This document shows positions 1-21,477 of a DNA stretch of 32,724 nucleotides, in pieces; position 1 is the stretch's first letter, and each line of letters opens with the position of its first letter. The position numbers and the translations under genes are program-made. The notes under the pieces were generated by a model. That model saw only the letters and a program-made list of their open reading frames with translations. It searched no databases and was not told the DNA's origin. This DNA comes from Candidatus Brocadiaceae bacterium (GTDB taxonomy: Bacteria > Planctomycetota > Brocadiia > Brocadiales > Brocadiaceae), in the NCBI GenBank assembly GCA_015661205.1, contig JACVXV010000009.1:1-32724 (forward strand), read 5' to 3'.

Positions 1-1
1 C

Positions 2-283
2 CCGGGAAGCGGGAAAATCAGGCGGCATCATTTAAGTGATAAGGCGATTCAGAATATGGTAAAAGGGGCAGTTAAAAAAGCAGGGATTGTCAAAAATGCG
101 TCTGTTCATACCTTACGGCACAGTTTTGCGACCCATCTTTTAATGAACGGGGTTAATATCCGGGAGGTTCAGGACTTACTTGGGCATAAGAATCTCGGGA
201 CTACAATGATTTATACGCATGTAATGAGGGATATGTCGAATGCGCCGAAAAGCCCGCTGGATAATCTCTATGGGAAAAAATAG
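2..283 (+). CDS. intI: Integron-type tyrosine recombinase, C-terminal part (5' end outside window)
   Basis: The frame is open from the window edge to a TAG at 281-283 and encodes the catalytic C-terminus of a site-specific tyrosine recombinase. Visible catalytic parts are the HTLRH box (with the second conserved Arg and its His), the LGHK histidine box and the IYTH tyrosine nucleophile. The stretch [10 protein letters not shown] before the box and the SPLDNL tail after the tyrosine match integron integrases (compare EVRRHHMHDQ and SPLDAL, as I recall them from IntI1) better than XerC/D. The first ATG in view (56) is internal to the domain, so the gene really starts upstream of the window. No attI or attC site is recognisable in the 124 bp downstream; integron cassettes normally lie on the other side of intI. 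The alternative is another phage-type integrase. Confidence 0.85.
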
Positions 284-393: not shown

Positions 394-410
394 AGGAGGT
401 TAGAACCATT
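394..410 (+). promoter_or_regulatory. Perfect Shine-Dalgarno followed by an ATT start
   Basis: AGGAGGT at 394-400 is followed by a 7-nt spacer and ATT at 408-410, in frame with the downstream radical SAM gene. The frame is closed by a TAA at 387-389, so there is no ATG further upstream. The next conventional start, TTG at 447, has no Shine-Dalgarno at the right distance. This makes ATT the best-supported initiation codon, a very rare choice (infC is the classical example), or else an ATG that has mutated. Confidence 0.55.
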
Positions 411-2222
411 AATACGCCAAAGGTTTATTTAAAACAGCTCGAAACGTTGTGGTTTCAGGTAACAGGCACTCATTGTAACTTACAGTGTGCCCATTGCTTT
501 ATCTCCTGCGGCCCCAAAAACACAACACATGAGATGATAAACGTAGAAACTATACAGTGGTATTTGAAAGAGGCTGAAACGCTGGGAGTAAAGGCATTTT
601 ACTTTACCGGAGGCGAGCCTTTTTTACATCCTCACTTGGTAGATATTTTACAAGAGTCCCTAAAATACGGTCAGACCACCGTTCTTTCAAATGGCACTTT
701 AATAACAGATGGTCTTTCACAAACGCTAGCCCGGATATCTCGCCTATCCAAACACAAATTAGCATTCAGGGTAAGCCTGGAAAGTTTTATCGAGGAAGAA
801 AATGACCAGATTCGTGGGATGGGGGCATTTAAAAGGGCAATCAGGGGTATCCAGTCCCTGACGCATGCCGGTTTTAATCCGATTATTACCGTAGCCGATT
901 GGTCGAAATATGGAAGGTTTACGAAAGAAACGGGAGAAGAACTTCAGTTATTTGAACGTTCTTTGAATATCCCACAGATAAGACTCAAAAAACTGCCTTT
1001 AGTTCTCCTGGGACGATGCGCCGAATTCGTCAGACCTTACGATGAAGGCGAACGGGTTACCGCGAAGTGTTTTGATAACTACCCGATGGACAATCTCCAA
1101 TGTGCCACCAGCCGTATCGTGACCAGTAAAGGGGTCTTTGTTTGCCCCTTACTTATTGCCGCTCCAAAGGCCTGGATGGGCTGGACTTTGCAAGAATCCC
1201 TTGGGCCGTACACGATGGAATCGCCTGCTTGTTATACGTGCAGAACAACGGGATTAACCTGTAAAAATGAAGACACGGAGGTTAAAGACGTCGTCAGGAA
1301 ATCCGTTAATGAATTTTACGCCACTGCCGCCATTCATCCTCAAAAGGAACTCTGTTGTCCAACCAGTTATAATCCGGCAGACCTATCGCATATTCCCCCT
1401 GAAGTTCTGAATATTTCGTATGGGTGCGGCAGTCCCATGACACAAGCCGGCATCGAACCCGGCGAAAGCGTGCTGGATTTGGGCGCCGGCGGTGGGATAG
1501 ACTGTTTTATCGCTGCAAAGCTGGTAGGCAAATATGGACGGGTTATCGGGGTTGACATGACTGATGAAATGCTGCAAAATGCCATTATGTCAAAAGGCGT
1601 TGTTGCAGGAAAACTGGGTTTTGATAATGTACATTTTGTGAAAGGGTTCCTGGAAGAGATACCTCTGGCAGATGGATGCGTTGATCTGGTAACGTCCAAT
1701 TGCGTCATCAATTTATCAGACCAAAAGGAGAAGGTTTTTCAAGAGATATTCAGGGTGCTGAAGAGGGGTGGTCGATTCGCGATATCCGACGTTGTCTCCA
1801 ACAGGGAAGTCCCTGTGTCTATGAAACAGGATAAAAAATTATGGGGTGAGTGTATTTCCGGGGCAATTACAGAACGGGAATTTTTCACGATAGCGAAGGC
1901 TTCAGGTTTCTATGGACTGGAAGTGGTGAATCGCTATCTCTATAAGGAGGTGGACGGTTTTACGTTTTACTCCGTGACTGCAAGGGGGTACAAATACGAG
2001 AAGTCGAAGGAATGTAAATACACCGGACAATATGCAACCTACAGAGGACCTTTTGGTAGTGTTTCGGACGATGACGGTCATACCTATTTAGTAGGAATGC
2101 CATTGGAAGTATGCACTGATACGGCATGGAAACTTACAAATCCGCCCTATAAAGGGATGTTTATCATATCAGATACGCAAGACAAAGAGGTAAAAACATC
2201 CTGCGGACCAAAATGTTGCTAA
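408..2222 (+). CDS. Radical SAM/SPASM protein fused to an ArsM-type arsenite methyltransferase
   Basis: Numbering is from the ATT at 408 (604 aa); TTG 447 would remove 13 residues. The N-terminal half is a radical SAM domain with the CNLQCAHC cluster motif (C23, C27, C30) and the FTGGEP SAM-binding motif, then a SPASM-like cysteine set (CATSR, FVCP, ACYTC, LTC). From about residue 315 it is ArsM-like: the CC pair at 316-317, a GCG loop with C340, the SAM motif DLGAGGG at 357-363, SNCVINLS with C432 and GECISGA with C482. These cysteines sit where ArsM binds As(III). The protein ends CGPKCC, a possible soft-metal tail. ArsM methylates arsenite with SAM; ArsS-type radical SAM enzymes transfer the 5'-deoxyadenosyl group of SAM to methylarsenic in arsenosugar synthesis. 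A fused enzyme could do both steps, but that is inference, and the radical SAM half may have another substrate. The next gene is a fused glycosyltransferase that fits the same idea. Confidence 0.85.
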   Translation: MNTPKVYLKQLETLWFQVTGTHCNLQCAHCFISCGPKNTTHEMINVETIQWYLKEAETLGVKAFYFTGGEPFLHPHLVDILQESLKYGQTTVLSNGTLITDGLSQTLARISRLSKHKLAFRVSLESFIEEENDQIRGMGAFKRAIRGIQSLTHAGFNPIITVADWSKYGRFTKETGEELQLFERSLNIPQIRLKKLPLVLLGRCAEFVRPYDEGERVTAKCFDNYPMDNLQCATSRIVTSKGVFVCPLLIAAPKAWMGWTLQESLGPYTMESPACYTCRTTGLTCKNEDTEVKDVVRKSVNEFYATAAIHPQKELCCPTSYNPADLSHIPPEVLNISYGCGSPMTQAGIEPGESVLDLGAGGGIDCFIAAKLVGKYGRVIGVDMTDEMLQNAIMSKGVVAGKLGFDNVHFVKGFLEEIPLADGCVDLVTSNCVINLSDQKEKVFQEIFRVLKRGGRFAISDVVSNREVPVSMKQDKKLWGECISGAITEREFFTIAKASGFYGLEVVNRYLYKEVDGFTFYSVTARGYKYEKSKECKYTGQYATYRGPFGSVSDDDGHTYLVGMPLEVCTDTAWKLTNPPYKGMFIISDTQDKEVKTSCGPKCC

Positions 2223-2406
2223 GGCGGTATCAATAAATAAAGGGGGCGTCTTGGGGCGGGCGTTCGTGCGAACAGTAATCAATTCCGCATTTTAACCACG
2301 GAACACGCGGAACACACGGAAAATGTGTGGAAGGATGAAAGGGTATTGAGGGTTGTTCCCTTCGTATGATTGTGGGGGTACCATGCATAACGGCGGCTTT
2401 TTTCGA

Positions 2407-2458
2407 TGTAGGGCGAAGTGCCACTTCGCCCGTAACGAAGCAATCGCTTCGTGCTACA
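2407..2458. repeat. Two-hairpin palindromic element
   Basis: An outer stem TGTAG/CTACA (2407-2411, 2454-2458) encloses two hairpins. The first is GGGCGAAGT/ACTTCGCCC (2411-2431) and the second ACGAAGC/GCTTCGT (2435-2452, loop AATC). It has a REP-doublet architecture and no coding potential. It lies in the 575-bp gap between the radical SAM gene and the glycosyltransferase. Apart from this and the three repeats that follow, I see nothing in that gap. Confidence 0.7.
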
Positions 2459-2522
2459 ACTTTGAAATTCCTATACGTTAAGTTAGCCATTCGGCGACTT
2501 CACACGTGGGAACGAGTCGGAA

Positions 2523-2580
2523 GGTAGGTCAGACGTCCTCGCCTGACATTATAATGACAAGCGGGGACGCTTGTCCTACC
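2523..2580. repeat. Two-hairpin palindromic element with outer GGTAGG/CCTACC stem
   Basis: Outer arms GGTAGG (2523-2528) and CCTACC (2575-2580) enclose a hairpin GTCAG/CTGAC (2528-2547) and a hairpin GACAAGC/GCTTGTC (2556-2575). The layout is the same as in the element 65 bp upstream but the sequence differs, so it is a second family with the same architecture. It could fold as a cruciform or as a branched RNA. Confidence 0.65.
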
Positions 2581-2620
2581 TGCTGCTTTGAGTCGGAAAA
2601 CGAGATATACCGAAATAAAA

Positions 2621-2672
2621 TGAAGCTGGAGCTTCCGGTACAGGCGCATTCCCAAGCTGGAGCTTGGGAATG
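2621..2672 (+). repeat. 52-bp two-hairpin repeat, copy 1
   Basis: Hairpin GAAGCT-GG-AGCTTC (2622-2635), a 12-nt linker, then hairpin ATTCCCAAGCT-GG-AGCTTGGGAAT (2648-2671). A second copy lies inverted at 17821-17872 and matches at 46 of 52 positions by eye. The conserved length and the two orientations argue for a dispersed REP-like family rather than a local terminator. Confidence 0.8.
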
Positions 2673-2734
2673 AGAGAACGAGTGAATTATTTGAGTCGCC
2701 CCTACGAGGCTTCAAAATATGCTAACAATGATTT

Positions 2735-2783
2735 CCCACCGCTTGCGCAGTGGGCTACGATTGTGTTGCCCCTGACGGGGCAT
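2735..2783 (+). repeat. 49-bp dispersed palindromic repeat, copy 1
   Basis: It starts CCCACCGCTTGCGCAGTGGG and ends GCCCCTGACGGGGC; both ends can form hairpins. A copy at 6862-6910 matches at 45 of 49 positions, and a diverged inverted relative lies inside 7028-7099. This copy ends 14 bp before the GTG start of the glycosyltransferase gene, so it must lie in that gene's leader or promoter region. Confidence 0.8.
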
Positions 2784-2797
2784 TATGGATATGAAGC

Positions 2798-4159
2798 GTG
2801 AATGATTTGAAAACTACCGTATTAATCCTGGAATTTGCAAAGTACCCGCAACCTGGACACGTCAAGACGCGGCTGGCAGCAAGTCTGGGTACCGAAGAGG
2901 CGTGCCGGATTTACGACGCTATGGCGCAAAAAACGCATCATGAACTTCTGAAGCTGCAAGGACAGGGGGAAGCCAGGGTGATTGTGTATGCAGACGGAGC
3001 GGAACGACAGAAAATATCCGGCTGGCTGAGAGGGGGTTACGATACTTGGCTCCAGCCTGACGGGAATCTTGGAGCGCGATTGGAGTACGCCTTCTGCAAG
3101 GCATTCGAAATGGGCTTTCGAACTGTCATCGCCGTAGGTACTGACTGCCCCGGCTTGACTGCGGAGAAGATACAGAAAGCGGTCGGACAGCTAAAGCAAT
3201 TCGACGTGGTTATCGTTCCGGCTACCGATGGAGGTTACGTACTGATCGGCACAAATGCCTTTCAGCCGGCGCTGTTTAGACACATCACCTGGAGTTCGGA
3301 CCGGGTGCTTGAGCAGACATTACAACGCGCAAAGGCGAAAAACATGTTGGTCGCGCTGCTTGGTCCGGAGACCGATGTAGATACCGTAGAAGATCTAAAA
3401 ATAGTTGTAGATACGTTGAATCCCCAATTATCCGTCATTATTCCCGTCCTCAACGACCGCTACATCCTCAAGGAAACCCTTCACGCGTTCTCATGCGTTC
3501 ATCATCTGGGAGAAATTGAAGTAATCGTTGTTGATGGCGGGTCTACCGATGGTTCTGGTGATGTTGCGGCCGGCTTTAATGCCAAAGTGCTGAAAAGCGC
3601 CCCGGGGCGCTCGCGGCAAATGAGCCTTGGTGTGCGCCATGCAAAAGGCCGATGGTTTTGGTTCCTTCATGCGGATTGTGTGCCGGAACTTGAAACGATC
3701 AGGTACTTGCCGGGGTATTTGCGCACGGTTGATCTCCGGTGGGGATTTTTTAAGCAGCGGATATCAGACCCGTCCCCCTCGTTCCGCCTGATAGAATTGG
3801 GGAACGAACTGCGCGGAAGAATTTTCAATCTTCCGTATGGCGATCAGGGTATCATGGTTCGCCGTGATCTGTACTTTCAATGCGGCGGTTTTGCGCAAGT
3901 CCCTTTTCTGGAGGATGCAATTTTGTCACGTTGTTTGTCAAAAATATGCCGTCCAGCGGTAATCAATAAAACGATAAAGATCACTTCGCGCCATTGGAGG
4001 TCACTGGGACCATTTTTTACGACCATCAGGAATATAGGTATCGCCTTTCGTTTTCTGGTGATCAGACAATCTCCGTCTGATTTGTTGGAATATTATTTGA
4101 AATGGGAAAAGCTGCATGAGCCTAAATCCCAAGATACCGGAAGTATTAAAAGCCAATAG
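2798..4159 (+). CDS. Fused glycosyltransferase: DUF2064/CofC-like domain plus family 2 glycosyltransferase
   Basis: A 453-aa protein of two nucleotide-sugar-transferase folds. Residues about 8-205 match the DUF2064 or 'transferase 1, rSAM/selenodomain-associated' family (TIGR04282): FAKYPQPGHVKTRLA near the start, VGTDCPGL around 113 and PATDGGYVLIG. Residues about 211-440 match 'transferase 2, rSAM/selenodomain-associated' (TIGR04283), a GT-A family 2 enzyme: SVIIPVLND, VDGGSTDGS around 245-253, FLHADC, and GDQGIMVRR with FLEDAIL. In many genomes these are two adjacent genes near radical SAM genes, including arsenosugar-type ones; here they are one polypeptide next to the radical SAM-ArsM gene. 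It probably moves an activated sugar onto a small metabolite in the cytoplasm. The start is GTG at 2798, as no in-frame ATG fits; the Shine-Dalgarno is poor. The acceptor is not known from sequence. Confidence 0.85.
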   Translation: MNDLKTTVLILEFAKYPQPGHVKTRLAASLGTEEACRIYDAMAQKTHHELLKLQGQGEARVIVYADGAERQKISGWLRGGYDTWLQPDGNLGARLEYAFCKAFEMGFRTVIAVGTDCPGLTAEKIQKAVGQLKQFDVVIVPATDGGYVLIGTNAFQPALFRHITWSSDRVLEQTLQRAKAKNMLVALLGPETDVDTVEDLKIVVDTLNPQLSVIIPVLNDRYILKETLHAFSCVHHLGEIEVIVVDGGSTDGSGDVAAGFNAKVLKSAPGRSRQMSLGVRHAKGRWFWFLHADCVPELETIRYLPGYLRTVDLRWGFFKQRISDPSPSFRLIELGNELRGRIFNLPYGDQGIMVRRDLYFQCGGFAQVPFLEDAILSRCLSKICRPAVINKTIKITSRHWRSLGPFFTTIRNIGIAFRFLVIRQSPSDLLEYYLKWEKLHEPKSQDTGSIKSQ

Positions 4160-4271: not shown

Positions 4272-6410
4272 TTATACAGGCGTCGGCAATTGTTCTATCG
4301 CCGGAAAATTGATGATAAACGTGGCGCCATTGCCGTTGTTTTCCGCGTGGATGGAGGCGTCCATGTCTTCCAGTTTCTTTTTTACGATGGAGAGACCCAG
4401 CCCCGTTCCCGTCTGCTTTGTGGTGTAAAAAGGTTCGAATATTTTCTGTAAGACGTCTTCCGGTATGCCGGGGCCGGTGTCGGCAATCGTCAACCGGATG
4501 GTGTGGTTATCCGGCAGACAGGAGGCGTCAATCGATATCTTTCCACCACCGGGCATTGCATGGACGGCATTATGGAGCAGGTTGAAAAAGACGTCTCTCA
4601 ATGCCCCGGCGTCGTGAGTGACCGCCGGGAGGTCGTCCGGTATCCGGCAATGGACGGCAATCTTATTTTGTTTTACCTCATGATTAAGCACCAGCAGCGC
4701 CGAGTTTATCACCTCTCCAAGCTTAACGGACGTTCTTATTTCACTGCGTGGTTTTGCGAATTGTAAAAGCTGGTTGACAACCTTAGCCAACCGGTCGATC
4801 TCATCTATAATAATCGCCAGGTCTTCCTGCAAGGGGTCGTCCTTTTTTAAATCCTCCCGCATAACCTGCACAATCGCCTTTATGGAGCTTAACGGATTTT
4901 TTACCTCGTGCGCCACGCTGGTGGAAAGCCGTCCGAGGCTCGACAGCTTTTCGTTTTCATATATCTTTCTTTCGAGAGAAAGCTTCTCCTCGATGATCTT
5001 TGACTTTTCTACGGCAGAGCCGATTTCATTGGCAATGATCATGATCCGGTCAAGATGGTCGGATACAATGGGCAGGCCGCGCCTGGCGCGTCCCAGGCAC
5101 AATATCCCCTCCAGTTTTCGGTTAACAAAGATGGGGAATATGAAGATGGCGTCCAGCAGTTTCATTTCGTTGATAATGGAGGCCTCTTTTACCTCGTACC
5201 GGTTGAGGACGACAAATTCGCTGTTTGCGAAAAACCGCACGATGTGATGGATGTTAGACCGGGTAATCGGCTCGCGGCTTTTGTCGCCGATGATGGAAAT
5301 CCGTTCGCCGCCCTTTTCAGTAAAAGGGACTGATTTTAAGAGTAAAAGGTTCGTTGATTTAATGCCCGTGGCCTTTTTAATGGTTGCAACCACGTGACCC
5401 AGCAGCTTTACCAGGTTTATCAGGGGGTCGGTGCTGATAACGTGGCTTAGTTCATTCAGCAGATAGTCGCTGTCGGAAATACGATAAAAGATGAGTTTTC
5501 TGAAGACATGCTGCATACGTTCCTTCAGCGTCGGAAACCAGAAAACCAGGTTGATGATAAATACGGCCTCCAGCATTTTGGAGTTTATGGAAAAGTGTTT
5601 TCCCAGCGACCTCGTTAATTTGTTAATGCCAAAATAGTAGAGACAAACGAGGATAAAGGTTAGAAAGGAGTAAAAGACGCTGCGGCGCAGCACGAACTCC
5701 ATGTAGTTGTACCGATAGACGTAATAGGAGAAAATGATGCTGGGGAAGATCGACGACAACATGGAGGCAAGCACCAGGTAGTCCCCGAAGTAAGCGATCT
5801 TGTTTCCCTCAAGAAGCACCGTGAAGCCGATAAGGAGCGCAATAACGATTACGACCCAGAAGATGGCCTTGTAGAATTTCCGCTCTTCCTTTTCTTCCAC
5901 CGTCTTTGCAAGCAGCCGGGAAATACTCGCTGCAATACCGAGCGATACGACGAGCCAGGCGACAAACGGTTTGACGTAAAAGGCGGTGGTCGCCAGGGCA
6001 TATACGTTTTCCGACAGGATAAGGTGCTTTATGACGATGGAAAAGGGGATAACGGGTAGGTAAAGGGCGGCAATGATGAGCCGCTGATACGGTTTTTTGA
6101 TGTGCGGCTTGTTATCAAAAAGGAATAAAAGCGCTGTATGAAGCAAGAGGCTCGGCATGAAGCCGATCCCCACGTAAGAAATGGCGTCGGCAATAATCGC
6201 CACGCCGACTATCTCTTTTTGGAAAAGGATGAAACTGAAGAGGGAAACGGTGTTTCCGAGGTGCCACATGGCCACACTGATTACGAGAAAAAGGAATACG
6301 AATTCGCTCCGTGTCTTGTGCTGCCGCTGCACAATCAGTATGGAAAGGACGATGTGCAATATACTGCCCAGGATGAAACCGATGAGGGATATAATTTCAA
6401 AGATTGGCAT
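4272..6410 (-). CDS. Membrane-bound sensor histidine kinase with GAF-like domain (orphan)
   Basis: A 712-aa kinase read on the minus strand, counted from ATG 6410. The first 290 residues or so hold about seven hydrophobic membrane segments, starting with PIFEIISLIGFILGSILHI. A GAF-like region follows (about 310-470), a short coiled coil, then HisKA with the phospho-acceptor box VAHEVKNPLSS (His501). HATPase_c has N-box NLLHNAVHAM, G1 DTGPGIPE and G2 GTGLGLSIVKKK. All catalytic motifs look intact. The layout resembles PrsK/AtoS-like kinases, though the ligand is unknown. No response regulator lies nearby. The ORF can be extended to ATG 6467, but that stretch runs through a palindrome (6449-6461) and a CCCC/GGGG repeat, so the MPIFEI start is preferred; neither start has a good Shine-Dalgarno. 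Confidence 0.88.
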   Translation of the reverse strand: MPIFEIISLIGFILGSILHIVLSILIVQRQHKTRSEFVFLFLVISVAMWHLGNTVSLFSFILFQKEIVGVAIIADAISYVGIGFMPSLLLHTALLFLFDNKPHIKKPYQRLIIAALYLPVIPFSIVIKHLILSENVYALATTAFYVKPFVAWLVVSLGIAASISRLLAKTVEEKEERKFYKAIFWVVIVIALLIGFTVLLEGNKIAYFGDYLVLASMLSSIFPSIIFSYYVYRYNYMEFVLRRSVFYSFLTFILVCLYYFGINKLTRSLGKHFSINSKMLEAVFIINLVFWFPTLKERMQHVFRKLIFYRISDSDYLLNELSHVISTDPLINLVKLLGHVVATIKKATGIKSTNLLLLKSVPFTEKGGERISIIGDKSREPITRSNIHHIVRFFANSEFVVLNRYEVKEASIINEMKLLDAIFIFPIFVNRKLEGILCLGRARRGLPIVSDHLDRIMIIANEIGSAVEKSKIIEEKLSLERKIYENEKLSSLGRLSTSVAHEVKNPLSSIKAIVQVMREDLKKDDPLQEDLAIIIDEIDRLAKVVNQLLQFAKPRSEIRTSVKLGEVINSALLVLNHEVKQNKIAVHCRIPDDLPAVTHDAGALRDVFFNLLHNAVHAMPGGGKISIDASCLPDNHTIRLTIADTGPGIPEDVLQKIFEPFYTTKQTGTGLGLSIVKKKLEDMDASIHAENNGNGATFIINFPAIEQLPTPV

Positions 6411-6448
6411 AGTGATTTTTTGTTTGGTAAAAGGTGAAAATACCTGGC

Positions 6449-6485
6449 GCGGCAGAGCCGCAAACATTCCCCATTTCGCAAGGGG
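6449..6485. repeat. Palindromic repeat upstream of the histidine kinase
   Basis: GCGGC-AGA-GCCGC (6449-6461) followed by CCCC...GGGG arms (6469-6485). It overlaps the 19-residue N-terminal extension that the longest kinase ORF would have, which is the main reason for the shorter start. Confidence 0.45.
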
Positions 6486-6510
6486 GAGACAGAGAGTATA
6501 TGGGTTAAAT

Positions 6511-6672
6511 TTAACGCTGGTTTAGTACCTTCTGGATAAAATCTGTCAGTATCTGTGGCAACAACTTGCTAAATGCTACTAGGATCGCCGCTAAACTGCG
6601 AGCCCTTATCTCCACTCTAAATTGACAACTAAATTCTGTTATGGTACTACTATCCTGTGGGTTCACACCCAT
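6511..6672 (-). pseudogene. Short ORF with good ribosome site, possible transposase N-terminal relic
   Basis: On the minus strand a GGAGG (6678-6682) lies 5 nt before ATG 6672, opening a 53-codon frame that starts MGVNPQDSS and ends FIQKVLNQR before TAA. The segment RARSLAAILVAFSKLLPQIL is amphipathic and reads like real protein. I think it resembles the first residues of some transposase-like proteins, but I cannot name the family with confidence, and no downstream continuation was found in other frames. It could equally be a small independent gene. Confidence 0.35.
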
Positions 6673-6675
6673 ATT

Positions 6676-6742
6676 GCCCTCCTTCTCTTTATGGTATCGT
6701 TCTTTTCTCAAAAACTACTTTACCATAATTGGAGGGCTTTTT
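6676..6742 (+). repeat. Long interrupted inverted repeat ending in a T-run
   Basis: GCCCTCC (6676-6682) pairs with GGAGGGC (6731-6737), and inside it TATGGTA (6690-6696) pairs with TACCATA (6721-6727); TTTTT follows at 6738-6742. On the plus strand this looks like an intrinsic terminator with a long loop. On the minus strand it covers the leader of the 53-codon ORF at 6511-6672 and would sequester its Shine-Dalgarno. It could also be the end of a mobile element. Confidence 0.45.
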
Positions 6743-6861
6743 CTTTATACAGGTCTCTCTTTTTCTACTCTACCAAGATTTTTGGTATTGTACAAAAGAA
6801 TATTTGAATGTTTTGCTGTTTGTGTCGTCCCTCCGGGCTTGATAACGTCTTACAATAGCTT

Positions 6862-6910
6862 CCCACCGCTTACGCAGTGGACTACTATTGTGTTGCCCCT
6901 AACGGGGCAT
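6862..6910 (+). repeat. 49-bp dispersed palindromic repeat, copy 2
   Basis: This copy matches the one at 2735-2783 at 45 of 49 positions and has the same orientation. Both keep the central TTGTGTTGCCCCT. It lies in the gene-poor stretch 6468-7434, which holds only repeats and gene relics. Confidence 0.8.
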
Positions 6911-7027
6911 GACAAAGTCAGGCCAACCCCCGCCGGTTAACATCAGGTCAACCTTATTCGTAAGGAACTTTGTTATGGCAAACAGGAACGATTGCCATAC
7001 TTTCAGCATAGTGTTTACGCGGTAATA

Positions 7028-7099
7028 CAAAGACCCCCTTTTGGGGTGTAACAACCGTAGCCCACTGTGTGAACGGTGGGTAAAGAGAGGGGGTCTTTG
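7028..7099. repeat. 72-bp element with 12-bp perfect terminal inverted repeats
   Basis: CAAAGACCCCCT (7028-7039) and AGGGGGTCTTTG (7088-7099) are perfect inverted repeats. Inside, the minus strand carries a diverged relative of the 49-bp repeat (CCCACCGTTCACACAGTGGG and onward). The shape is that of a very small MITE or a REP doublet with its borders preserved. Confidence 0.7.
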
Positions 7100-7165
7100 G
7101 TTGCGGCTGTGCCGGGCTAGGATTTATCTGACAATAAAACACCCTTGTCGTCAAGGAGAAGGTAA

Positions 7166-7360
7166 GATACAATTTACAACAATGATTATGTGGTTATTGC
7201 GAATGATGAGGGGGAGGCAACGTTTAAGCAACTAAAAGAATATGACAAAACCCGGGTACTCCATCCCCTGAACCCAAAACATGACGACATGGAGCTTGGC
7301 AAGGATATTGAATACCGTATCGTTGGCGTGGTGATGGAGAAAAAGAAGAGATACCGATAA
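7166..7360 (+). pseudogene. C-terminal remnant of a LexA/S24-type repressor
   Basis: The frame ending in TAA 7358-7360 reads NDYVVIANDEGEATFKQL, then TRVLHPLNP and finally YRIVGVVMEKKKR. This is the usual C-terminal beta-barrel of S24 peptidase repressors (LexA/CI-like), including the lysine of ATFKQ that serves as catalytic base in the family. The frame is closed by TAA at 7163-7165, no start codon or DNA-binding domain precedes it, and the serine half is absent. It is a 5'-deleted relic, probably of a phage or mobile-element repressor, lying directly upstream of the PKS. Confidence 0.7.
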
Positions 7361-7434
7361 TTTTAGAGCTAAATAAAATTACGGGAAATAATTGTCAACG
7401 ATAAACATTCAAGTGAGAAAAGGAAAGATTCGAT

Positions 7435-10400
7435 ATGAACGATATAACCAGGCAGATTTCTCATTTATCCCCGCTCAAACTCGCTTACGCAATACAGCAA
7501 CTGAAACCGAAGCTGGCGCTTGCTGAGGCGGAACCGATTGCGGTTGTTGGCATTGGATGCCGTTTTCCGGGCGGGGTGAATACGCCGGAAGATTACTGGA
7601 ACCTGCTGTACGAGGGAAAAGACGCCGTTACGGAGGTACCCGCAGAACGATGGGATATGGAGGCCTTTTACGATCCAAATCCGGGAACCCCCGGAAAAAT
7701 GTATGCCCGCCATGGCGCGTTCCTGAAATCGGTAGATACCTTTGACTGCGAATTCTTCGGCATCACGCCCCGGGAAGCTGCCGGTATGGACCCACAGCAA
7801 CGGTTATTGCTGGAGGTCAGTTGGGAGGCCATTGAAAACGCCAACTTGTCGCCTGACCTTATGTACGGCAGTCAGACGGGGGTTTTTGTCGGTATCAGCA
7901 CCTTTGACTACGCGCTGATCCGTTCCGGATTGCAAAACCCAAAGGCCATTGACGCCTATTTTACCAGCGGAAATGTGTTGAGCGTGGCGGCAGGCCGTCT
8001 ATCATACTTTCTGGGTCTTGCGGGGCCGAGTGTCTCGGTGGACACGGCATGTTCCTCTTCCCTGGTATCCATTCACCTTGCCTGCCAGAGTTTGCGCCGG
8101 AGGGAGAGTAATCTTGCCCTTGCGGGCGGGGTCGGTTTAATTCTTGCGCCTGAACCCTTCATTAATTTTTGCCAGGCGCGTATGCTGGCGCCTGACGGCC
8201 ATTGCAAAACCTTTGATGCGGCGGCTGACGGCTACGTCCGCGGAGAAGGTTGCGGCATGATTGTTCTCAAACGGCTGCTGGATGCGGTGGCGGATGGCGA
8301 TAACGTCCTGGCCGTTATTCGTGGTTCTGCCGTCAATCAGGACGGGGCAAGCGGCGGTTTAACGGTGCCGAGCGGGCCGTCTCAGGAGGCCGTGATACGG
8401 CGGGCGCTGGAAAACGGCGGCGTAGCTCCGTCACAGGTAGGTTATATCGAGGCGCACGGCACGGGGACGTCCCTGGGCGACCCCATTGAGATGGGCGCGC
8501 TGGGAAGCGTGTTTCGTGATCACCCCCGTAATAATCCCCTTATGGTGGGATCGGTAAAAACCAACATGGGGCATTTGGAAGCAGCGGCAGGCGTTGCCGG
8601 TGTTATCAAGGTTATCCTTTCTCTTAGAAATGGCGAGATACCGCCTCACCTCCATTTTAAAAACCCCAATCCTCACATCGCATGGAACGAACTTCCCATT
8701 GAAATCCCAACCCGGCGGAAACAGTGGACGTCCGGCGAAAACCGGAGGATCGCGGGCGTGAGTTCCTTTGGCTTTGCCGGGACAAACGCACACGTGGTGT
8801 TAGAAGAATTCCGCTCTTCCGTGGAAAATGCGGGACAAGACCATCAACCATCCGTTGTCAATCGTCCTCTGCACATACTCGCTCTTTCTGCCAGAACGGA
8901 AGGCGCGCTCCATCAATTAGCCGAACGGTATGAAGCTCATCTTGCCAATCACGCTGATCTTTCACCGGAGGATTTTTGTTTTACTGCAAACACCTGCCGT
9001 TCTCATTTCCCCCATCGCATTTCAGTGGTTGCAGAAAACACAAAAGAACTGGGCGGAAAACTGTCCGCCTTGAGGGCGGGCAAGGTGGAGGCAGGCATTT
9101 TTAGGGGACAGGAAGCAGGCCGCCCTCCTATTGCCTTTCTTTTCACCGGCCAGGGGTCGCAATATTCGGGGATGGGGCGACTGCTTTACGACACCCAGCC
9201 AACGTTCCGCAAGGCGCTGTCCCACTGCGATGAAATCCTGAGGGCTTACCTGGAAAAACCGCTTATCGGGATACTGTATCCCTCGCAGAATGATCAGCAA
9301 GCGCAGTTGTTGAATGAAACGGCCTATACGCAACCCGCATTGTTTTCACTGGAATACGCCCTGGCCGAATTATGGCGTTCCTGGGGCATTACGCCTTCCG
9401 TCGTTATGGGACACAGTGTCGGGGAATACGTGGCCGCCTGTGTTGCCAGTGTTTTCAGCCTTGAAGAGGGCTTGAAGCTTATCGCCGCGCGCGGACGCCT
9501 TATGCAGTCGTTGCCGCAGAATGGCTCAATGGTAGCCGTTTTTGCTGATGCCACCTACGTGGAAAAGGCAATCTCTCTCTATGTAAAAACGGTGTCTATT
9601 GCCGCCGTCAATGGCCCAACGCTCGTTGTTATTTCGGGATTGCGCGAGGATATACGGGAAATATGCGAACAGTTTAAAAAAGAAAAGATAGGCATACAGC
9701 CTTTGAACGTATCCCATGCCTTTCACTCTCCGCTTATGGACCCCCTGCTCTCTGATTTTGGAAAAATCGCATCGGAAATCACCTACGCTTCTCCACACAT
9801 CGGATTCATCTCGAATGTTACGGGAGATTTTATCACCGACGAAATCGCAAACCCCGCCTATTGGGTGCGCCACGTGCGCGCACCCGTGAAGTTTTCAGCG
9901 AGCATGAACGCGCTTTCTGAAAAGGGATATGGAGTCTTTGTTGAAATTGGTCCAAAGCCGGTGCTGTCGGGGATGGGAAAGCAGTGTCTTAAAAAGCCTG
10001 AAATCCTCTGGTTACCCAGCTTGCAGAAGGAGGGGGGCGATTGGGAAACACTTCTGAAAAGCCTGGGCGCACTGTACGTGCGGGGCGCGCAGGTGGACTG
10101 GAACGGTTTTAACCGGAATTATTCACCACGCAGGATTGCGCTTCCCACCTATCCCTTTCAGCGGGAACGGCACTGGATAGACACGACTCCGGTTTACCGC
10201 CACCGCCATCCCGGAAAGCTACCGGGGCAAAGGCTGGTGTTGCCATTCTCAAAAGAAATCCGCTTCGCATCGCTATTCAGCGGCGCTTCGCCAGCCTATT
10301 TGAAAGACCACAAGTTGTTTGGGACGCTGGTTGTTGCCGGTGCGTCTCACGTTGCCATGGCGCTTCAGGCGGTAAAGGAGGCATTCGGGGTAGACGCCTG

Positions 10401-13400
10401 CGTCTTGGAAAACGTACACTTTCAGGAGACGCTGGTTATTCCTGACAAGGGTGAGCGCACCGTCCAAATGATTTTACATTCGAAAGGTAGTGAACAGGGA
10501 TACACCTTCGCGTTAGTAAGCGCCCAGCCTGGCGGGGATGAAAAAGACGCCGGATGGGTTCAGCACGTCCAGGGAAATATCAGGATTTCCCCGGCAGAAA
10601 AGGCACTGGAAAAAACATTGATCCTCACCGCGGAACAGCAAAAACAATACGAAGCGCAGGATGGCCGTGAATTATACGCTGAAATTATGGCGTCGGGACA
10701 CCACGTAGGCGCCTCTTTTCAGTGGGTAGATCGCCTCTGGTGGAAGGAAAATGAAGGGTTTTGCCGGTTGAAGAGGCCGGAGACTCTTGTGCCGATGGAC
10801 GAGTACCAGCTCTATCCGGGATTAATTGATTCCTGTATTCAATTTTTCTGCATTTACGGGCCGCAGTTGGTGTTTGGCGATGAAAAGGCGGGCGACCTGA
10901 AACGTGACCATATTTTTGTCCCCTTCGCCATTGATGAATTCCGGTTTTACAAACCCATCAGGCAGAGCCACTCTCTCTGGTGCCACACACGGATGAAGAA
11001 AGCTGACGGAACGGAGAATATCCTGACGGGTGATATCCAGTTGTTAAGCGATACCGGCGAGGTGCTGGCGGAAATCAAGGGTTTCACGGCCAGACGTCTC
11101 AGCCGTAAAACGCTCTCTTCCGGGACTCAAAAGGATATAGAGGTAGGGCTGTACCAGCTTTCATGGCAACCGGCTGAGCTTCGAACGCCCGCTGACGTAA
11201 AAAATACTCAGCCCGGCCACTGGCTTGTCCTGGCCGACAGAGGGGGCATTGGGCAGGAATTATCGAAGCTCCTGCAAGGGCGCGGTGAGACCTGCAAGCT
11301 GGTCTTTTCCGATGAAATTGATATTACCGAACAGGACAACTTCCGGCAAATGCTAAGCACCCCGGATAATCAACCGCACTACCGGGGCATTGTTTATCTC
11401 TGGGGGATGGACCCGCATATTGACAGCCTTCGCGGTTGCGGAAGTTTGCTCTATTTGATCCAGGCTATCATAAAAACCGGCTGGCCTGTATTTCCTCGCC
11501 TCTGGCTAATCACCCGAGGGGCGCAGCCTGCCGGGCAGGAACAAACACAGGTGAATCCTGACCAGTCAGCGCTGTGGGGTTTGGCCAGTGTGATTCCCCT
11601 TGAACACAAGGATATGAGCTGTACCTGCGTGGATATTGACCCATCCGGCGATGCAAAGGATGTTCCTGCCTTAGTGAATGAACTGTGGTTTCCTGACAGA
11701 GAAGACAAGGTTGCATGGCGACATGGGGTTCGGTATGCAGCCCGACTGGTTCCCTACAAAAATACCGAATCCAAGCTACCTGTTGAATTCAATAAAGATA
11801 AAACCTACCTTATTACGGGAGGCCTTGGCGCTTTGGGGCTTCTGGCCGCAAGCTGGATGGTAAGCCGTGGCGCGGCTCAGCTTGCGTTGGTGGGACGCCG
11901 TGACATTTCAGAATCAGTCAAGGAATCTGTCCGTGGCCTTGAGCGGGCAGGCGCCCGTGTCTTGGTCGAGAAGGTGGACGTATCAGACAAACAGGACGTA
12001 TCCCGGTTACTGGAAACGATTCAGGCGTCCATGCCGCCCCTTGGTGGGATTATCCACGCGGCGGGTACCGTCTCTGACTCCTTTTTGTTCCGGATGGATT
12101 TGGAGCGCCTTAAGCACGTCCTGTCTCCCAAAATACAAGGCGCGTGGAATTTGCATCGGTTGACCAAAGATATGCCGTTGGACTTCTTTGTCTGTTTTTC
12201 TTCCGTGGCCTCGCTGCTGGGTTCGCCGGGGCAAGGGAACTACGCTGCGGCCAATGCGTTTTTGGATGGGTTTGTTCACCATCGCCGCACGTTGGGGCTG
12301 CCGGGTTTGAGCGTTAATTGGGGTCCTTGGGCTGATATGGGAATGGCCGCCGATATGAGCCTTCGTGAACGGGAACGGTGGATTCAACGGGGCATGGGAA
12401 CAATTGCGCCGGAACGAGGGCTGGAAATATTGGGGCAACTCATGGCGCAGGACGCCGTTCAAGCCGGGGCGCTCCCCGTGAACTGGCGTAAGTTTATCCC
12501 TGAATTCTTTCAGGGTTCACCGCCACCGCTCCTTGAATCTTTTGTACGGACGTCTGACGTTGCACAGCCCGACACGGCAAAAAAGCCCCTTTTGATTAAA
12601 CAACTGGAGAAAACGCCCGTTGAAGCCCGCCGGTCTCAAATACAGGCGTTTGTCCTTTCACTGGTTGAAGAGGTGATTGGCGCAGGAAGTTCCGGCCATA
12701 TCGACCCGCGAAAGGGCTTGTTTGATTTAGGCATTGATTCCCTGATGGCCGTTGACCTGAAAAACCGCATTGAGACGGCAACCGGCCGGACGCTCCGTTC
12801 AACGCTGGTCTTTGATTATCCCACGGTTGACGCCATAGCGGACTACGTGGCAAAAGAATTGAAACCGGAAGACATGCAATATGCCGCTGCAGTCCCGGAC
12901 GTTAAAGAGAGAATTGCAGTGCGGGAATCTTCGTATGAGCCGATTGCCGTCATCGGCATGGGTTGCCGGTTTCCCGGTGGAGCGGACAACCCGGAATCCT
13001 TTTGGAGACTGCTCCACGACGGGGTTGACGCCGTAACGGAAATCCCTCAAGACCGATGGAACGTTGACGCCTTTTACGACCCGGATCCGACGGCGCCAGG
13101 AAAAACCTACGCCAGACACGGCGCATTTTTAAACCGTGTGGATACCTTTGACGCCCAGTTTTTCGGCATTACCCCCAGAGAGGCGGTAACCCTTGATCCC
13201 CAGCAACGGCTTCTGCTGGAGGTTACCTGGGAAGCCCTGGAACACGCCAACCTTGCGCCCCTGCAACTATCAGGAAGCCAAACCGGTGTATTTATAGGCA
13301 TCAGCACCTTTGACTATGCGGGCATGCAGATAGGCGCGCAAAACCCTGAAGGTATTAATGCCTACTTTGCCACGGGGAATACGTTGTGCATGGCGGCCGG

Positions 13401-16400
13401 GCGTCTCTCCTACGTTTTGGGATTGATGGGGCCGAGCATGTCCGTGGACACGGCGTGTTCCTCCTCGCTTGTGTCCATACACCTTGCGTCACAAAGCCTG
13501 CGCAGCCGCGAGTGCGACCTTGCACTGGCCGGAGGGGTAGGATTGCTCCTTGCGCCGGAACTATTCATTAATTTTTCCAAGGCGAAGATGTTATCGCCTG
13601 ACGGACGCTGCAAGACCTTCGACGCTTCGGCAAACGGATACGTACGCGGGGAGGGTTGCGGTGTGGTTGTCTTGAAACGGTTGTCGGACGCCATAGCCGA
13701 TGGCGACAATATTCTTGCCTTGATCCGCGGCTCAGCGGTGAACCAGGACGGCCCCGGCGCCGGTTTTACCGTGCCGAGCGGGACGGCCCAGGAGCGGGTC
13801 ATACGGCAGTCCCTGTTAAACGCGGGTGTTGCGACCGACGAGGTGGGCTACATAGAGGCGCATGGCACCGGCACCTCGTTAGGAGACCCCATTGAGGTCG
13901 TCGCGCTGGGCGGTGTGTTTGGCGGGCGTTCCCGGAACAATCCGTTGTTGATCGGTTCGGTAAAAACAAACGTAGGCCACCTGGAAGCGGCCGCCGGGGT
14001 TGCCGGTTTTATCAAAACCGTGCTGTCCCTTCAGCACCATGAAATCCCTCCCCACCTGCATTTCCGTAACCCGAATACGCAGATACCCTGGGATAAACTT
14101 TCTATAGAAGTGGTTACCAAACTGAAACACTGGGACTCGAAGAAAAGGATTGCAGGCATCAGCTCTTTCGGCGCCAGCGGCACGAATGCCCATCTGGTAC
14201 TGGAGGAAGCGCCGTCTGTGGAGAATACGAATATTAGCGCCCGAATTCCGAAAGCTGAGGGCGGCGCGTATTTGTTTGTGCTTTCGGCGAAAACGGAAGA
14301 AGCCCTCAGAAACGCGGTGGAACGGTATGAAAACTATCTCTCGCTTAATCCGGACGTCGCCGTGAAAGACCTCTGTTTTACGGCGGCCACGTGCCGTTCA
14401 CATTTCAATTGCCGTCTGAGCGTCATCGCCACAACCACACCCGAACTCCGCAACAAACTAACCGCCTTCCGCAACGGACAAAAAGCGGAAGACATGTACA
14501 GCGGGCGTTCCGCCATAGTCAGCGGTCGGGAGGAGAAAAAGGGATTTGAAAACGACCGGCCATCCCTTGCGGAATTGGGAAAATTATACGCTCAGGGTGT
14601 TTTCATTGACTGGGATGAATTTTACCGGAACGATAAAGGCCGAAGAATCGTTTTGCCCTGCTATCCATTTCAACGGCAACCATACTGGCTTGAACGTCCG
14701 AAAATACAGGCGCTTAACGTGCAATTAACGCATAAAGACACGTCCCGGTTTCCTTCGATCCATCCGCTCCTGGGCAGGAGACTCCTGTTAGCCGGTTCCC
14801 CGGAGACTCGTTATGAAGTCGATATGCGCCACGATTCGCCGAAATTCCTGGGTGACCATATCATTTACGGAAAAATCATCTTCCCGCTGGCGGCCTGCCT
14901 GGAGATGGCGTTGGCGGCGGGGGCATCCACCTTCAACTCAGACTGCTTCGTTCTGGAGGAGATTGCCGTCATGCAGGCGTTGATTATACCGAAGGACGGA
15001 GCAAAAACCCTGCAATTGGTTTTCGTTCCGGAGGGTACAAGCGCGCCAAAAAACCCGGTTCACAAAACAGCCTCCTTCAGACTTTTCAGTCTGGACGCCG
15101 AAAAGAAAACGCCCGTCTGGACGTTGCATATATCGGGAAAGATACGCGCGGAAGAGAACGCGCAGGCGCCCGACCGTGAGAACCTCCCGTTGTTACAAAC
15201 TACCTGCGCCAGGGAGAAATTGGCAAAGGATTGCTATCAGGGCTTTCAAGCGCGAGGCATCAATTTAGGGACAGAGTTCCAGTCCATTGAACGCTTGTGG
15301 TGTGGCAAAGCGCCACAGTCTTCAGGCTTGAACCTCCAGTCGGAAGAGATTGTAAGCCGGATATGCCTTCCCGGAAATGCGGCGGCAGAGTCAATAGATT
15401 ATTGGCTGCATCCTGTATTTCTGGACGGTTGCTTTCAAAGCACCGGTTGCGTGCTTCCGAACAACGATGAAACCTTTTTGCCCGTAAGCATTGAACGTAT
15501 TCGGGTAAATCTGTCTTCAACCCCGATGAAACGTCTCAAAGAGAATCACACATCCGGGGACGGATTCCATTTGTGGAATCACACCAGGATACATCCCGTC
15601 AAAGAGGGTCAGCAAAGCCTGACCGCCGACATAAACCTCTTCGACGAACAAGGGAACGTTGGGGTACAAATACTGGGATTGTCGATCAGGAAATCCCACC
15701 GCGACGTTATCTTGCGAGACCTGCCGAAGGAAGAGAAAGAGGGCATTCACGATTGGTTGTATGAAACTGCGTGGCAGCCCCTAACCCTGAGTGCGCCTGC
15801 GGAAGCCGATATCGCGCCGCCGGGGGATTGGTTGATCTTTGCCGACCGGCAAGGCGTCGGCCTCCGGTTATCCAAACTTGTGGAAGAGCGTGGCGGGCAT
15901 TGCATTTTGATACATCCCGGCCAGGCGTTTGCCCAGGAAAACGGCAAACAGTTTACGATTAACCCTGCCGAGCCTTCTGACGTCAAGCGCGTCCTGGCGG
16001 AAATCCGGGAAAATAAACCCTATCGCAGGATCGTTTATCTGTGGGGTCTGAACGTCGAAGACAATTCGCCGGGCAATGACCATAAAACGGATGTGACTGA
16101 TGTTATGCAACCTTCTCTCTTTGCACTTCAGTCCTTTGTGCATGTACTTCAGGCATTAGCCAAAACCGGCTGGCCGGAAATGCCACGGTTATCAGTTGTT
16201 ACCCGCGGCGCACAGCCGGTTGGGACGGAACCGGCCGGATTCAATGTCTGGCAGTCGCCTTTCTGGGGACTGGCGGGCGTGATTCCCCTGGAACATCCAA
16301 ACATTCCTTGCGCACGGTTTGACCTGGATCCGCTTCCGGGAGATGACGACGCCAAGCTCCTCTTCCATGAACTTTTGCTTTCGAACCTCGAAGAGCGGGT

Positions 16401-17712
16401 CGCCTGGCGTAAGGGCGTTTGTTATGTCCTCAGGCTTAAGAAAATGCAGCAACAAACCATGAGGCCCAACGCACCGTTGCCTTTTTCAAACTTTAATGGT
16501 ACCTGTTTGATCACCGGCGGACTCGGGGCGCTTGGCCTGCGTGTCGCGCAATGGATGGCCGAAAAGGGTGTTCGCTTTTTCGCATTAGCAGGGCGGAGCG
16601 ATCCAACCCATGAGGCATTGGAGGCCATCAAGTCCATAGAAATGAAGGGCGCCAAGGTGGCCGTTGCCAAGGCGGATATCTCGGAATATCAGGATGCGGC
16701 CAGGGTTATTGAGGAACTACACGCTACCATGCCCCCATTAACAGGCATTATCCATGCAGCGGGTGTTCTTGAAGACACGGTACTGCTGCGACTTGATTCG
16801 GAACAATTGCGCAACGTGATGTCGCCCAAAGCGGCCGGTGCCTGGAACCTTCATCTCCTGACACAAAACTTACCGCTGCAATTCTTTGTCTGCTTCTCGT
16901 CTGCTGCCTCGCTGTTAGGGTCGTCAGGCCAGGGAAACTATGCGGCGGCAAACGCCTTTATGGACTCCCTGGCGCACTATCGCCGTTCACTGAAATTGCC
17001 AGGATTGAGTGTTAATTGGGGACCCTGGGCCGAAACAGGGATGGCGGCCAATCTCAGCGCCCGTAATCAGGCGCGATTGTCTACCCTGGGATTTGACACC
17101 ATCCCGCCGGTGAAGGGTTTGGAAGTCTTGGAATATCTGCTTCGCACCGAAGCGGTTCAAGCCGGTGTCCTTCGCGTAAACTGGCCGAAATTCCTCAAAC
17201 AAGTTTATAAAGGCCCGATTACCCCGTTTTTTGAGGCGTTAGCCCAAGACCTGAAATTGCCGGCATTGCCGCAAGAGGGTCAAACACCATTTGTCAAACT
17301 GCTGGAGGAGTCGCCCGTGGACGAGCGCCGTGACTTGCTTACGGCACACGTGTGCACCCAGGTTGCCAAAGTCATGAACAGCTCAAATACGGAGAAACTT
17401 CAGTCCGAACAAATAGAATCCCGCCAAAGATTATTTGACATGGGCATCGACTCCCTCATGGCCGTAGAACTAAAAAACCTCCTCGAATCCAGCCTGGGAC
17501 ACACACTCAGCGCCACGCTCTTGTTTGACTATCCCACCGTGGAAGCCATTGTTGACTACCTGAAAGAAGGCGCGCTTTCTTCCGTCTTTCCTTCAAAAGA
17601 GGAGGCTGCCGTATCAACCCGCGACGAGCTAGAAGGCGTGTCCGACGATGAGATTGCCGATCTACTTGCCCGGGAGCTTATGTCTATCAAAGAGGAGAAG
17701 GAGAATAAATAA
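7435..17712 (+). CDS. Two-module type I polyketide synthase, second module lacking AT
   Basis: 3425 aa. A short N-terminal linker (1-32, no loading module) precedes module 1: KS (33-457, C206/H341/H380); AT (about 565-865, GQGSQ 572, Ser661 in GHSVGEY, HAFH 761-764, the malonyl-CoA signature); DH (H959 in HxxxGxxxxA, so the usual Pro is Ala; D1132 in DxxxQ); KR (TGGLGALG near 1462, Y1603, N1607); ACP (S1769). Module 2: KS (from 1835, C2008/H2143/H2182); no AT, with the pre-AT linker running straight into the post-AT linker at about 2350-2385; DH (H2475 with intact HxxxGxxxxP, D2664); KR (TGG near 3028, Y3169); ACP (S3340). A docking-like acidic tail follows. There is no ER and no thioesterase. 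Both KRs keep the Asp typical of B-type enzymes. Each module would add a malonyl unit and reduce it to an enoyl, giving a diene. AAAGGAAAG upstream is a fair Shine-Dalgarno. No PPTase or release enzyme lies nearby; the product is unknown. Confidence 0.95.
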
Positions 17713-21000: not shown

Positions 21001-21425
21001 CTGAAAAGAACATTATCAAACCGGGTGTGGTTTATTGCCTGAGGCAAAAAGGCGAGACCGGCGGTAACGAAGAGGTAAACCCATTGCAACCTTACTTCCT
21101 GGTCTATATCCGCGAAGACGGAACGGTTCGTTTCAATTACACCAACGCCAAACAGATACTGGAAATCTACCGCCTTATGTGTCAGGGACGCAAAGCGCCT
21201 TATGAAAAACTTTGTGAATTATTCAATACAGAAACCAGGAATGGCCAGGAAATGGGTAAATACACAGAGTTACTCAAAAAAGCCGTATATGAAATATGCC
21301 ATGTATTCAAAAAACGCAGTAATCAAAAACTCACCTCTGACCGGGGTGCATTATTGATCCCCCAGTCAAAACAGGTGAATGATTTGGATAATTTTGAATT
21401 AGTAACGTGGTTAGTCATAAATTAG
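18087..21425 (+). CDS. PLD-nuclease / SNF2-type helicase
   Basis: 1112 aa. Residues about 20-180 form a phospholipase D-like nuclease domain with H121-G-K123 (HGKLYL) and the GSSNFT motif with N142. From about 250 to 880 it is a superfamily 2, SNF2-like ATPase: Walker A GLGKT (274-278), DESH (364-367, a DEAH-box variant), LSATPVNNN (motif III) and QRFGRIDRLGS (from 826, motif VI). The central 590-720 region is rich in charged helices, probably a coiled coil (EKLENKINEFLKSKAKTQEE). One PLD half-site is visible, so it may act as a dimer. Such proteins are expected to translocate on DNA and cut it, the restriction arm of a defence system. The start is ATG 18087, followed after about 10 residues by the family-like TVGQFLIDNTKQG; no clear Shine-Dalgarno. 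It is first of a same-strand cassette. It differs from DISARM, where PLD and helicase are separate genes. Confidence 0.88.
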   Translation: MNNTSIRDNHNNGTVGQFLIDNTKQGAGLSIVSAYFTIYAYKQLKNQLDQIDHLKFLFGEPTFIKSLDPAKTNRRDFKIEDDKLVIPMESRLKQKSISKECSDWIKEKVSVKSMVKPNFLHGKLYLVENPNGVKEAVMGSSNFTVHGLGMGGSPNIELNMVIQDRRDLDDLTNWFNTLWNDTTGLVEDVKAEVLKYLEQLYIENEPEFIYFKTLFHIFGNYLDEQKRGGLLNERTGFLESEIWNMLYDFQKDGVKGAINKILKHNGCIIADSVGLGKTFEALAVIRYFELLNYRVLVLCPKKLSANWTIYQASQNNSLNPFTKDRFNYTVMYHTDLGRITGKSDANGIELENFHWGAYDLVVIDESHHFRGNPVEKAKDDGTIKMNRAKWLMEKIITDGVKTKVLMLSATPVNNNLRDLRNQIAFITGGKNDALFESTHIKDITLTLKNAQTQFTLWADPKKNPERTVKQLLERLDSSFFKLMDEITIARSRKHIKGFYHLGTIGQFPERLKPHSIYPNIDVKDRFFTYDALNKKILQYKLSVFNPSAYVKDEKKQKYEALAGIEILAFKQSDREHFLIGMMKVNFLKRLESSIESFEISMDRTIQKIEKLENKINEFLKSKAKTQEEVLETLEPDEDEWEENADDLEQWQVGKKLKFDLADLRLEDWLNHLKKDKEALNELYNTAVAVTPERDAKLKDLKKLIEDKVNQPLNGNNKKVIVFTAFADTARYLYTCLKDWVKNDLGLDIALVAGSATQTTFGKNEFSNILTNFSPISKSRELMKSMPKEGAIDILIATDCISEGQNLQDCDFLINYDIHWNPVRIIQRFGRIDRLGSRNDKIQLVNFWPTKDLDNYINLKERVEARMALVDVTATGDDNILNTEQIEELITDDLKYRNRQLKKLQKEVIDLEEMSESISLTDFTLDDFRIELLTFLANNRRKLEEAPFGLYAVVPSPTGVHTHNTDTSRFTPAEKNIIKPGVVYCLRQKGETGGNEEVNPLQPYFLVYIREDGTVRFNYTNAKQILEIYRLMCQGRKAPYEKLCELFNTETRNGQEMGKYTELLKKAVYEICHVFKKRSNQKLTSDRGALLIPQSKQVNDLDNFELVTWLVIN

Positions 21426-21430
21426 GCCGT

Positions 21431-21477
21431 CACCGTCTGCCCAATTACAACAAATTGGCTACCATTTGGACGCGGTG
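21431..21477 (+). promoter_or_regulatory. Nested inverted repeat between helicase and regulator gene
   Basis: CACCG (21431-21435) pairs with CGGTG (21473-21477), and inside it CCAATT (21441-21446) pairs with AATTGG (21453-21458) across 6 nt. It starts 6 bp after the helicase stop and ends 14 bp before the -35 box of the HigA-type gene. It could be a read-through-limiting hairpin in the helicase mRNA or an operator for the HigA-type protein. Confidence 0.4.

Follow-up and report, generated by a model that had tools for sequence, protein, structure and literature searches.

Introduction

Can a single polypeptide replace the ArsM and ArsS enzymes that act together on arsenic? This question is raised by a locus in a 32,724-nt stretch of DNA from a Candidatus Brocadiaceae bacterium (GCA_015661205.1, contig JACVXV010000009.1; hereafter the window), in which one gene encodes a radical SAM (rSAM) domain joined to an ArsM domain, and the next encodes two glycosyltransferase domains, of the TIGR04282 and TIGR04283 types, in one chain. 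On its own, ArsM is known as an enzyme of detoxification. Bonds between carbon and arsenic are known to be made by the radical SAM enzymes ArsS, responsible for arsenic adenosylation in oxo-arsenosugar biosynthesis (PMC12159101), and ArsL (PMC8552651). A preliminary description of the window, made from the sequence alone, proposed that four steps of an arsenosugar-like pathway are condensed into two polypeptides, the domain fusions being the new part. Our analysis suggests that the 604-aa fusion is probably a single-chain stand-in for the ArsM and ArsS pair. We regard it as a variant of the arsenosugar-type C-As bond-forming pair, whereas transferase fusions of this kind are usual in Planctomycetota.

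Results

Organization of the locus

Both open reading frames were confirmed at the coordinates first assigned to them (Table 1). The ATT codon of the fusion gene, from which all its residues are numbered here, lies just downstream of AGGAGG, and no common start codon comes before the TTG at position 447. Residues ~1-290 form the radical SAM domain (PF04055), followed by a short linker and a complete ArsM domain. The fusion is not an assembly artefact, since numerous independent genomes likewise hold the two domains in one open frame. The full-length AlphaFold model reached a pLDDT of 50, and domain orientation was not read from it.

Table 1. Features of the rSAM-ArsM locus (positions within the window).
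Feature	Position	Strand	Remark
AGGAGG ribosome-binding-type motif upstream of the ATT start	394..400	+	Kept in relatives
rSAM-ArsM fusion protein, 604 aa	408..2222	+	ATT start
CX3CX2C radical SAM [4Fe-4S] motif, C23/C27/C30	474..497	+	From sequence; invariant in relatives
Region of five C-terminal cysteines in the rSAM half, C232/C246/C275/C278/C285	1101..1262	+	Pattern as in ArsS
ArsM domain with C316/C317, C340, C432, C482	1353..2222	+	
CGPKCC tail of the fusion	2202..2219	+	
Fused TIGR04282-TIGR04283 glycosyltransferase, 453 aa	2798..4159	+	GTG start

The glycosyltransferase gene, 575 bp from the fusion gene, was correctly recognized as a double-domain fusion, its product passing both curated cut-offs (TIGR04282, 195.9 bits against 134; TIGR04283, 191.4 bits against 182). 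Its supposed novelty had to be abandoned: the TIGR04282-TIGR04283 fusion is common in Planctomycetota (L199-L202, L204-L206 and L208, with reversed order in L185) and is also found in ordinary arsM-arsS operons. Three relatives (G012, G017 and G004) have the gene order arsS (329 aa), arsM (382-383 aa) and fused TIGR04282-TIGR04283, the arsM and glycosyltransferase genes overlapping and the glycosyltransferase being 68% identical to that of the window, where the rSAM-ArsM fusion precedes the equivalent gene. The fusion has TIGR04282 and/or TIGR04283 genes as direct neighbours in seven loci (the window, L029, L039, L040, L044, L045 and L046); in the last five these are separate genes, accompanied in three by a SurE phosphatase. 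Less favourable to the stand-in reading are the 575-bp gap in the window, the lack of an adjoining gene of either type at most other fusion loci, and the cases of G031 and G009, whose fused transferase is encoded at a different site from the rSAM-ArsM fusion. In Bacillota, an unfused rSAM homolog stands in one run with both transferases.

A link to the downstream PKS was not supported, other genes occupying the neighbourhoods of relatives. Bisenarsan-type chemistry, suggested by an EPSP synthase gene beside the fusion in five relatives, was likewise rejected; the gene is a standard aroA adjoining ribD. A plasmid search returned no match at E<=1e-30.

Distribution and mutual exclusion with ArsS

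The survey of fusion frequency proposed in the preliminary description found fused relatives of the rSAM half, counting both complete copies and those truncated at contig ends, in 17 of the 33 genomes of the window's family (window included) and, beyond it, in G044 from a different family, besides a second, apparently independent fusion type described below. Two genomes (G031 and G018) hold two copies each. Ca. Brocadiaceae, Ca. Loosdrechtia and Ca. Kuenenia are among the named carriers, which makes the anammox Brocadiaceae the most likely identity of the family. In alignments of 14 and of 17 fusion members, the cysteines of both the rSAM and the ArsM part are kept.

Fusion and ArsS are mutually exclusive in this family: 17 genomes have the fusion, 12 have ArsS, none has both and four have neither (Fisher p 5e-6, a statistic that, like the counts below, ignores shared ancestry and is computed mostly on MAGs with possible gaps). 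Genomes at least about 90% complete comprise 11 with the fusion and 12 with ArsS, again none with both, and genera g3 and g11 each contain both states. Among 294 Planctomycetota genomes, ArsS occurs in 91 and TIGR04282 in 140, with 83 in common. Fused types are present in 17 of the 294, with TIGR04282 in 16 of these 17 and ArsS in none; less favourably, 41 of the 140 TIGR04282-bearing genomes contain none of the three rSAM types. Among 14 well-known control genomes, only Synechococcus elongatus had TIGR04282 and ArsS above the cut-offs.

Outside the family, 29 genomes were reached through homologs of the rSAM half (one of them, L099, by a second-type fusion at 6195-8663), with TIGR04282 in 28, TIGR04283 in 23 and ArsS in none; ArsM was detected in only 18 of the 29 at E<=1e-30. 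Unfused rSAM homologs, ~28-54% identical, come from Nitrospinota, Nitrospirota, Fibrobacterota, Acidobacteriota, Rokubacteria, Methylomirabilota, Bacillota and Gammaproteobacteria. In Nitrospinota the rSAM and ArsM halves are separate genes, which on the simplest reading would represent the unfused state of the window's fusion type.

The radical SAM half and its relationship to ArsS

The CX3CX2C radical SAM site was borne out by C23/C27/C30 and by a PF04055 match (residues 25-165 of P0001, a translation with five extra N-terminal residues). The rSAM half scores below all curated cut-offs, with the Rv1681 family as the best match (100 bits; cut-off 380) and ArsS TIGR04167 matched at 72 bits, in the core region only (cut-off 300). 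The C-terminal cysteines had been called SPASM-like; Pfam models, however, gave no match to SPASM (PF13186) or to a PqqD/RRE domain in the window fusion, and the spacing of these cysteines is that of ArsS. Eight cysteines are invariant in the fusion and in unfused rSAM homologs (C23, C27, C30, C232, C246, C275, C278 and C285), matching C40, C44, C47, C259, C274, C311, C314 and C322 of ArsS, and the rSAM half follows the ArsS pattern of CX3CX2C and a C-terminal C-x13/14-C...C-x2-C-x6/7-C. Alignment with ArsS by hhalign (probability 99.7%, E 6e-27, 277 columns) paired all five C-terminal cysteines, which probably form a second cluster site.

Core-domain trees, quick ones of ~210 columns without bootstrap, split ArsS, the fusion family and the unfused homologs from SPASM enzymes with SH-aLRT values of 98 (side groups unlabelled) and 97 (trimmed tree). 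The rSAM half groups with ArsS and away from SPASM enzymes; given the nature of these trees and the long ArsS branch, we claim no sisterhood of ArsS to any one group. Profile comparison speaks against this placement, ranking the second fusion type above ArsS as a match to the rSAM core. A fold search gave general rSAM neighbours, SkfB and BlsE being the nearest solved folds; nothing ArsS-like turned up among the PDB structures searched.

It is highly improbable that activity is confined to ArsM, as methylation and detoxification, with the rSAM half reduced to a degenerate or regulatory vestige. Detoxification by ArsM alone is already known and would suit such an account, but from Bacillota to Planctomycetota there is no change in the SAM-cluster cysteines, a GGE motif or the five cysteines near the C-terminal end of this half, and the AlphaFold model of this half is confident (pLDDT 91, pTM 0.90).

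The ArsM half

The ArsM half scores 232.5 bits against PRK11873, under the curated cut-off of 263 bits, which no genome of the window's order reaches. Its closest PDB chains are the ArsM structures 5evj, 4kw7 and 4fr0, and C340, C432 and C482 of the fusion are the aligned counterparts of C72, C174 and C224 in chains 4kw7 and 4fr0. C316/C317 lie ahead of the aligned part and, from their position, would be the counterpart of the C44 site of CmArsM, whose four conserved cysteines are C44, C72, C174 and C224. Across 58 related ArsM domains, conservation is 100% at each of the four sites. The complete ArsM-like domain with its As-binding cysteines was thereby upheld, and loss of these cysteines in homologs, named beforehand as an argument against an arsenic function, was not observed.

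The CGPKCC tail also proved to be a conserved feature: its three cysteines are kept in 19 of 19 first-type fusions (as CEPACC in one member) and in many second-type fusions, and are incomplete in three unfused Nitrospinota ArsM proteins. This pattern fits a role in holding an intermediate, without proving it, as second-type fusions often keep the cysteines too. In the ArsM tree, both fused types and the unfused Nitrospinota ArsM form one clade (96/89), apart from the ArsM partners of ArsS, and the window's fusion type is monophyletic (100/99); an Acidobacteriota row labelled as second type (L084) is an ordinary ArsM. No ArsM besides the fused one was found in the family's fusion genomes at E<=1e-40.

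The arsinothricin ArsM model NF040538 matches the last 184 residues of the fusion (221 bits for the whole protein). ArsL and ArsM are the other known rSAM/ArsM pair (PMC8552651), and together with the unmet ArsS cut-off this match speaks for a different C-As bond, e.g., by 3-amino-3-carboxypropyl transfer as in ArsL, with an arsinothricin-like or other organoarsenical product. We consider such chemistry unlikely: the match is far under the NF040538 cut-off of 500 bits and about equal for the second fusion type, ArsL has three conserved cysteines (PMC8552651) against eight in the fusion rSAM family, ArsS-linked transferases adjoin the fusion in seven loci, and the fusion excludes ArsS.

A second type of rSAM-ArsM fusion

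Other Planctomycetota carry proteins, usually of 820-870 aa, composed of PqqD-like, rSAM, SPASM and ArsM domains, the last of the same ArsM subfamily. Their rSAM half groups with SPASM enzymes in the core-domain trees, so that the grouping with peptide-modifying families foreseen as counter-evidence in the preliminary description applies to this type and not to the window protein. A TIGR04282 gene directly follows the second-type fusion in L181, L182 and L209. This fusion never shares a genome with ArsS; in genus g120 two genomes have it and two have ArsS. On the simplest reading of these sequences, one ArsM lineage would have been fused separately with two different rSAM lineages.

The PqqD-like and SPASM domains of the second type, and the RiPP maturase SkfB as the nearest fold to the window's rSAM half, could be taken to favour a role in peptide or protein modification, the attached ArsM half serving detoxification independently. 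For the window fusion this is very unlikely: neither domain was matched in it, the trees place its rSAM half with ArsS, and RiPP-like maturation poorly explains why one ArsM subfamily entered two separate fusions or why ArsS is excluded. More speculatively, and with considerable doubt, the two fusions might form chemically different C-As bonds, in which case anammox and other Planctomycetota would hold at least one unknown organoarsenical class, possibly peptide-linked for the second type.

Discussion

An arsenosugar-type pathway, as first proposed, is supported because the fusion replaces ArsS and ArsM genome by genome and, in the window, adjoins the same fused glycosyltransferase. If the fusion stands in for the ArsM and ArsS pair, its ArsM half would methylate As(III) twice with SAM, and the trivalent dimethylarsenic would be held by the conserved cysteines. 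The rSAM half would cleave another SAM at its [4Fe-4S] cluster and place the 5'-deoxyadenosyl group on arsenic, yielding 5'-deoxyadenosyl-dimethylarsenic. From the known chemistry of ArsM and ArsS, this sequence of steps on one chain is likely (PMC12159101). The fusion and its cysteine-rich tail may keep the toxic trivalent intermediate from escaping. Adenine would then be removed by an enzyme outside both window proteins, after which the TIGR04282-TIGR04283 protein could complete an arsenosugar-like product. The idea of four steps in two polypeptides is a tentative one: neither protein covers adenine removal, and the substrates of the TIGR04282/TIGR04283 domains are named from co-occurrence only.

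If this is true, methylation and adenosylation in one chain would offer a compact system for studying the hand-over of a toxic trivalent intermediate. Arsenosugar-type biosynthesis would extend to anammox bacteria without ArsS and, via unfused homologs, to other phyla, and surveys based on ArsS only would overlook organoarsenical producers. The claim of novelty stands for the rSAM-ArsM fusion, a conserved family, and not for the double glycosyltransferase; searches of mainly open-access literature turned up no description of either type of rSAM-ArsM fusion.

Comparison with known systems

The rSAM half resembles ArsS (TIGR04167) in its whole-length profile alignment, CX3CX2C motif, five C-terminal cysteines and the partners ArsM, TIGR04282 and TIGR04283, but differs in its score (72 bits against a cut-off of 300), in being fused to ArsM and in never occurring with ArsS in the family tested. 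The other half shares the whole methyltransferase domain and four cysteine positions with ArsM (PRK11873/NF008823; PDB 4fr0, 5evj), whereas its score (232 against 263 bits), its clade apart from the ArsS-partner ArsM, its CGPKCC-tailed C-terminal extension and the fusion itself set it apart. ArsL and ArsM of arsinothricin biosynthesis (arsQML) likewise combine rSAM and ArsM activities on one arsenic atom and have a similar ArsM C-terminal part; unlike the fusion, each is encoded by a gene of its own, the conserved cysteines of ArsL number three, and the fusion remains below the arsinothricin ArsM cut-off. Finally, the window glycosyltransferase passes the cut-offs of both 'arsenosugar biosynthesis glycosyltransferases', TIGR04282 and TIGR04283, but carries them fused in one chain.

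Initiation codon and relatives of the rSAM-ArsM fusion

The ATT start codon of the rSAM-ArsM fusion and the AGGAGG preceding it are kept in genomes G000, G031 (two copies), G009, and G018, and G044 has ATG in this position. An in-frame stop lies just 5' of the fusion start in G009, leaving as starts ATT or a TTG 39 nt downstream, the latter of which would cost the protein conserved residues. Genome G044 is assigned to a different family and carries a copy of the locus (L029) with 94% identity, which would reflect either recent transfer or mis-binning.

Gene neighborhoods

A conserved cassette comprising a CelA-like GT2, a 454-473 aa protein, and an AglJ-like GT2 is located 5' of the fusion in loci L029, L030, L033, L034, and L035, and it may connect the fusion's product with a glycolipid. 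Among loci with the unfused rSAM, those of Acidobacteriota (L072, L084) have the unfused rSAM in a row of consecutive genes with a TIGR04282-like gene and an apparent set of ABC transporter genes, with ArsM also present in the row of L084. In Bacillota (L088, L091, L094), the unfused rSAM shares its gene runs with the transferases, with membrane proteins, and with a cysteine protein of the GSGCXCGALAG type.

A second fusion type and TGA-containing ArsM matches

The PqqD-like + rSAM/SPASM + ArsM protein is a second fusion, independent of the rSAM-ArsM type of the window; certain of its open frames are as long as 1100-1400 aa, with an additional N-terminal part. In genomes G033, G037, G040, G045, G049, and G051, ArsM matches contain an in-frame TGA and are possible selenoproteins.

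Features of the window and of loci encoding the second-type fusion
Feature	Location	Coordinates	Remarks
Tyrosine recombinase, C-terminal end	window	1-283	phage integrase family, 79.7 bits; contig start, just upstream of fusion
ATT start codon of fusion	window	408-410	AGGAGG upstream; same site in L030, L031, L032, L033
Type I polyketide synthase, 3425 aa	window	7435-17712	two KS, two KR, single acyltransferase domain
Defense-island-like run	window	18087-32055	PLD+Snf2 helicase, HTH, YhcG-type nuclease, type IIG restriction-methylase, Avs4-like protein
Second-type fusion	L027, L028		
Second-type fusion	L099	6195-8663	
Second-type fusion	L181	7820-10282	
Second-type fusion	L182	8500-11595	
TIGR04283-TIGR04282 fused, domain order reversed	L185	6618-7964	directly after second-type fusion
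Second-type fusion	L185	8011-10533	
Second-type fusion	L209	2905-5379	

Matches within the defense-island-like run

Within this run, the PLD+Snf2 helicase matches C3a139 (440 bits), the YhcG-type nuclease corresponds to PDC-S02, and the 1716 aa Avs4-like protein scores 636 bits.
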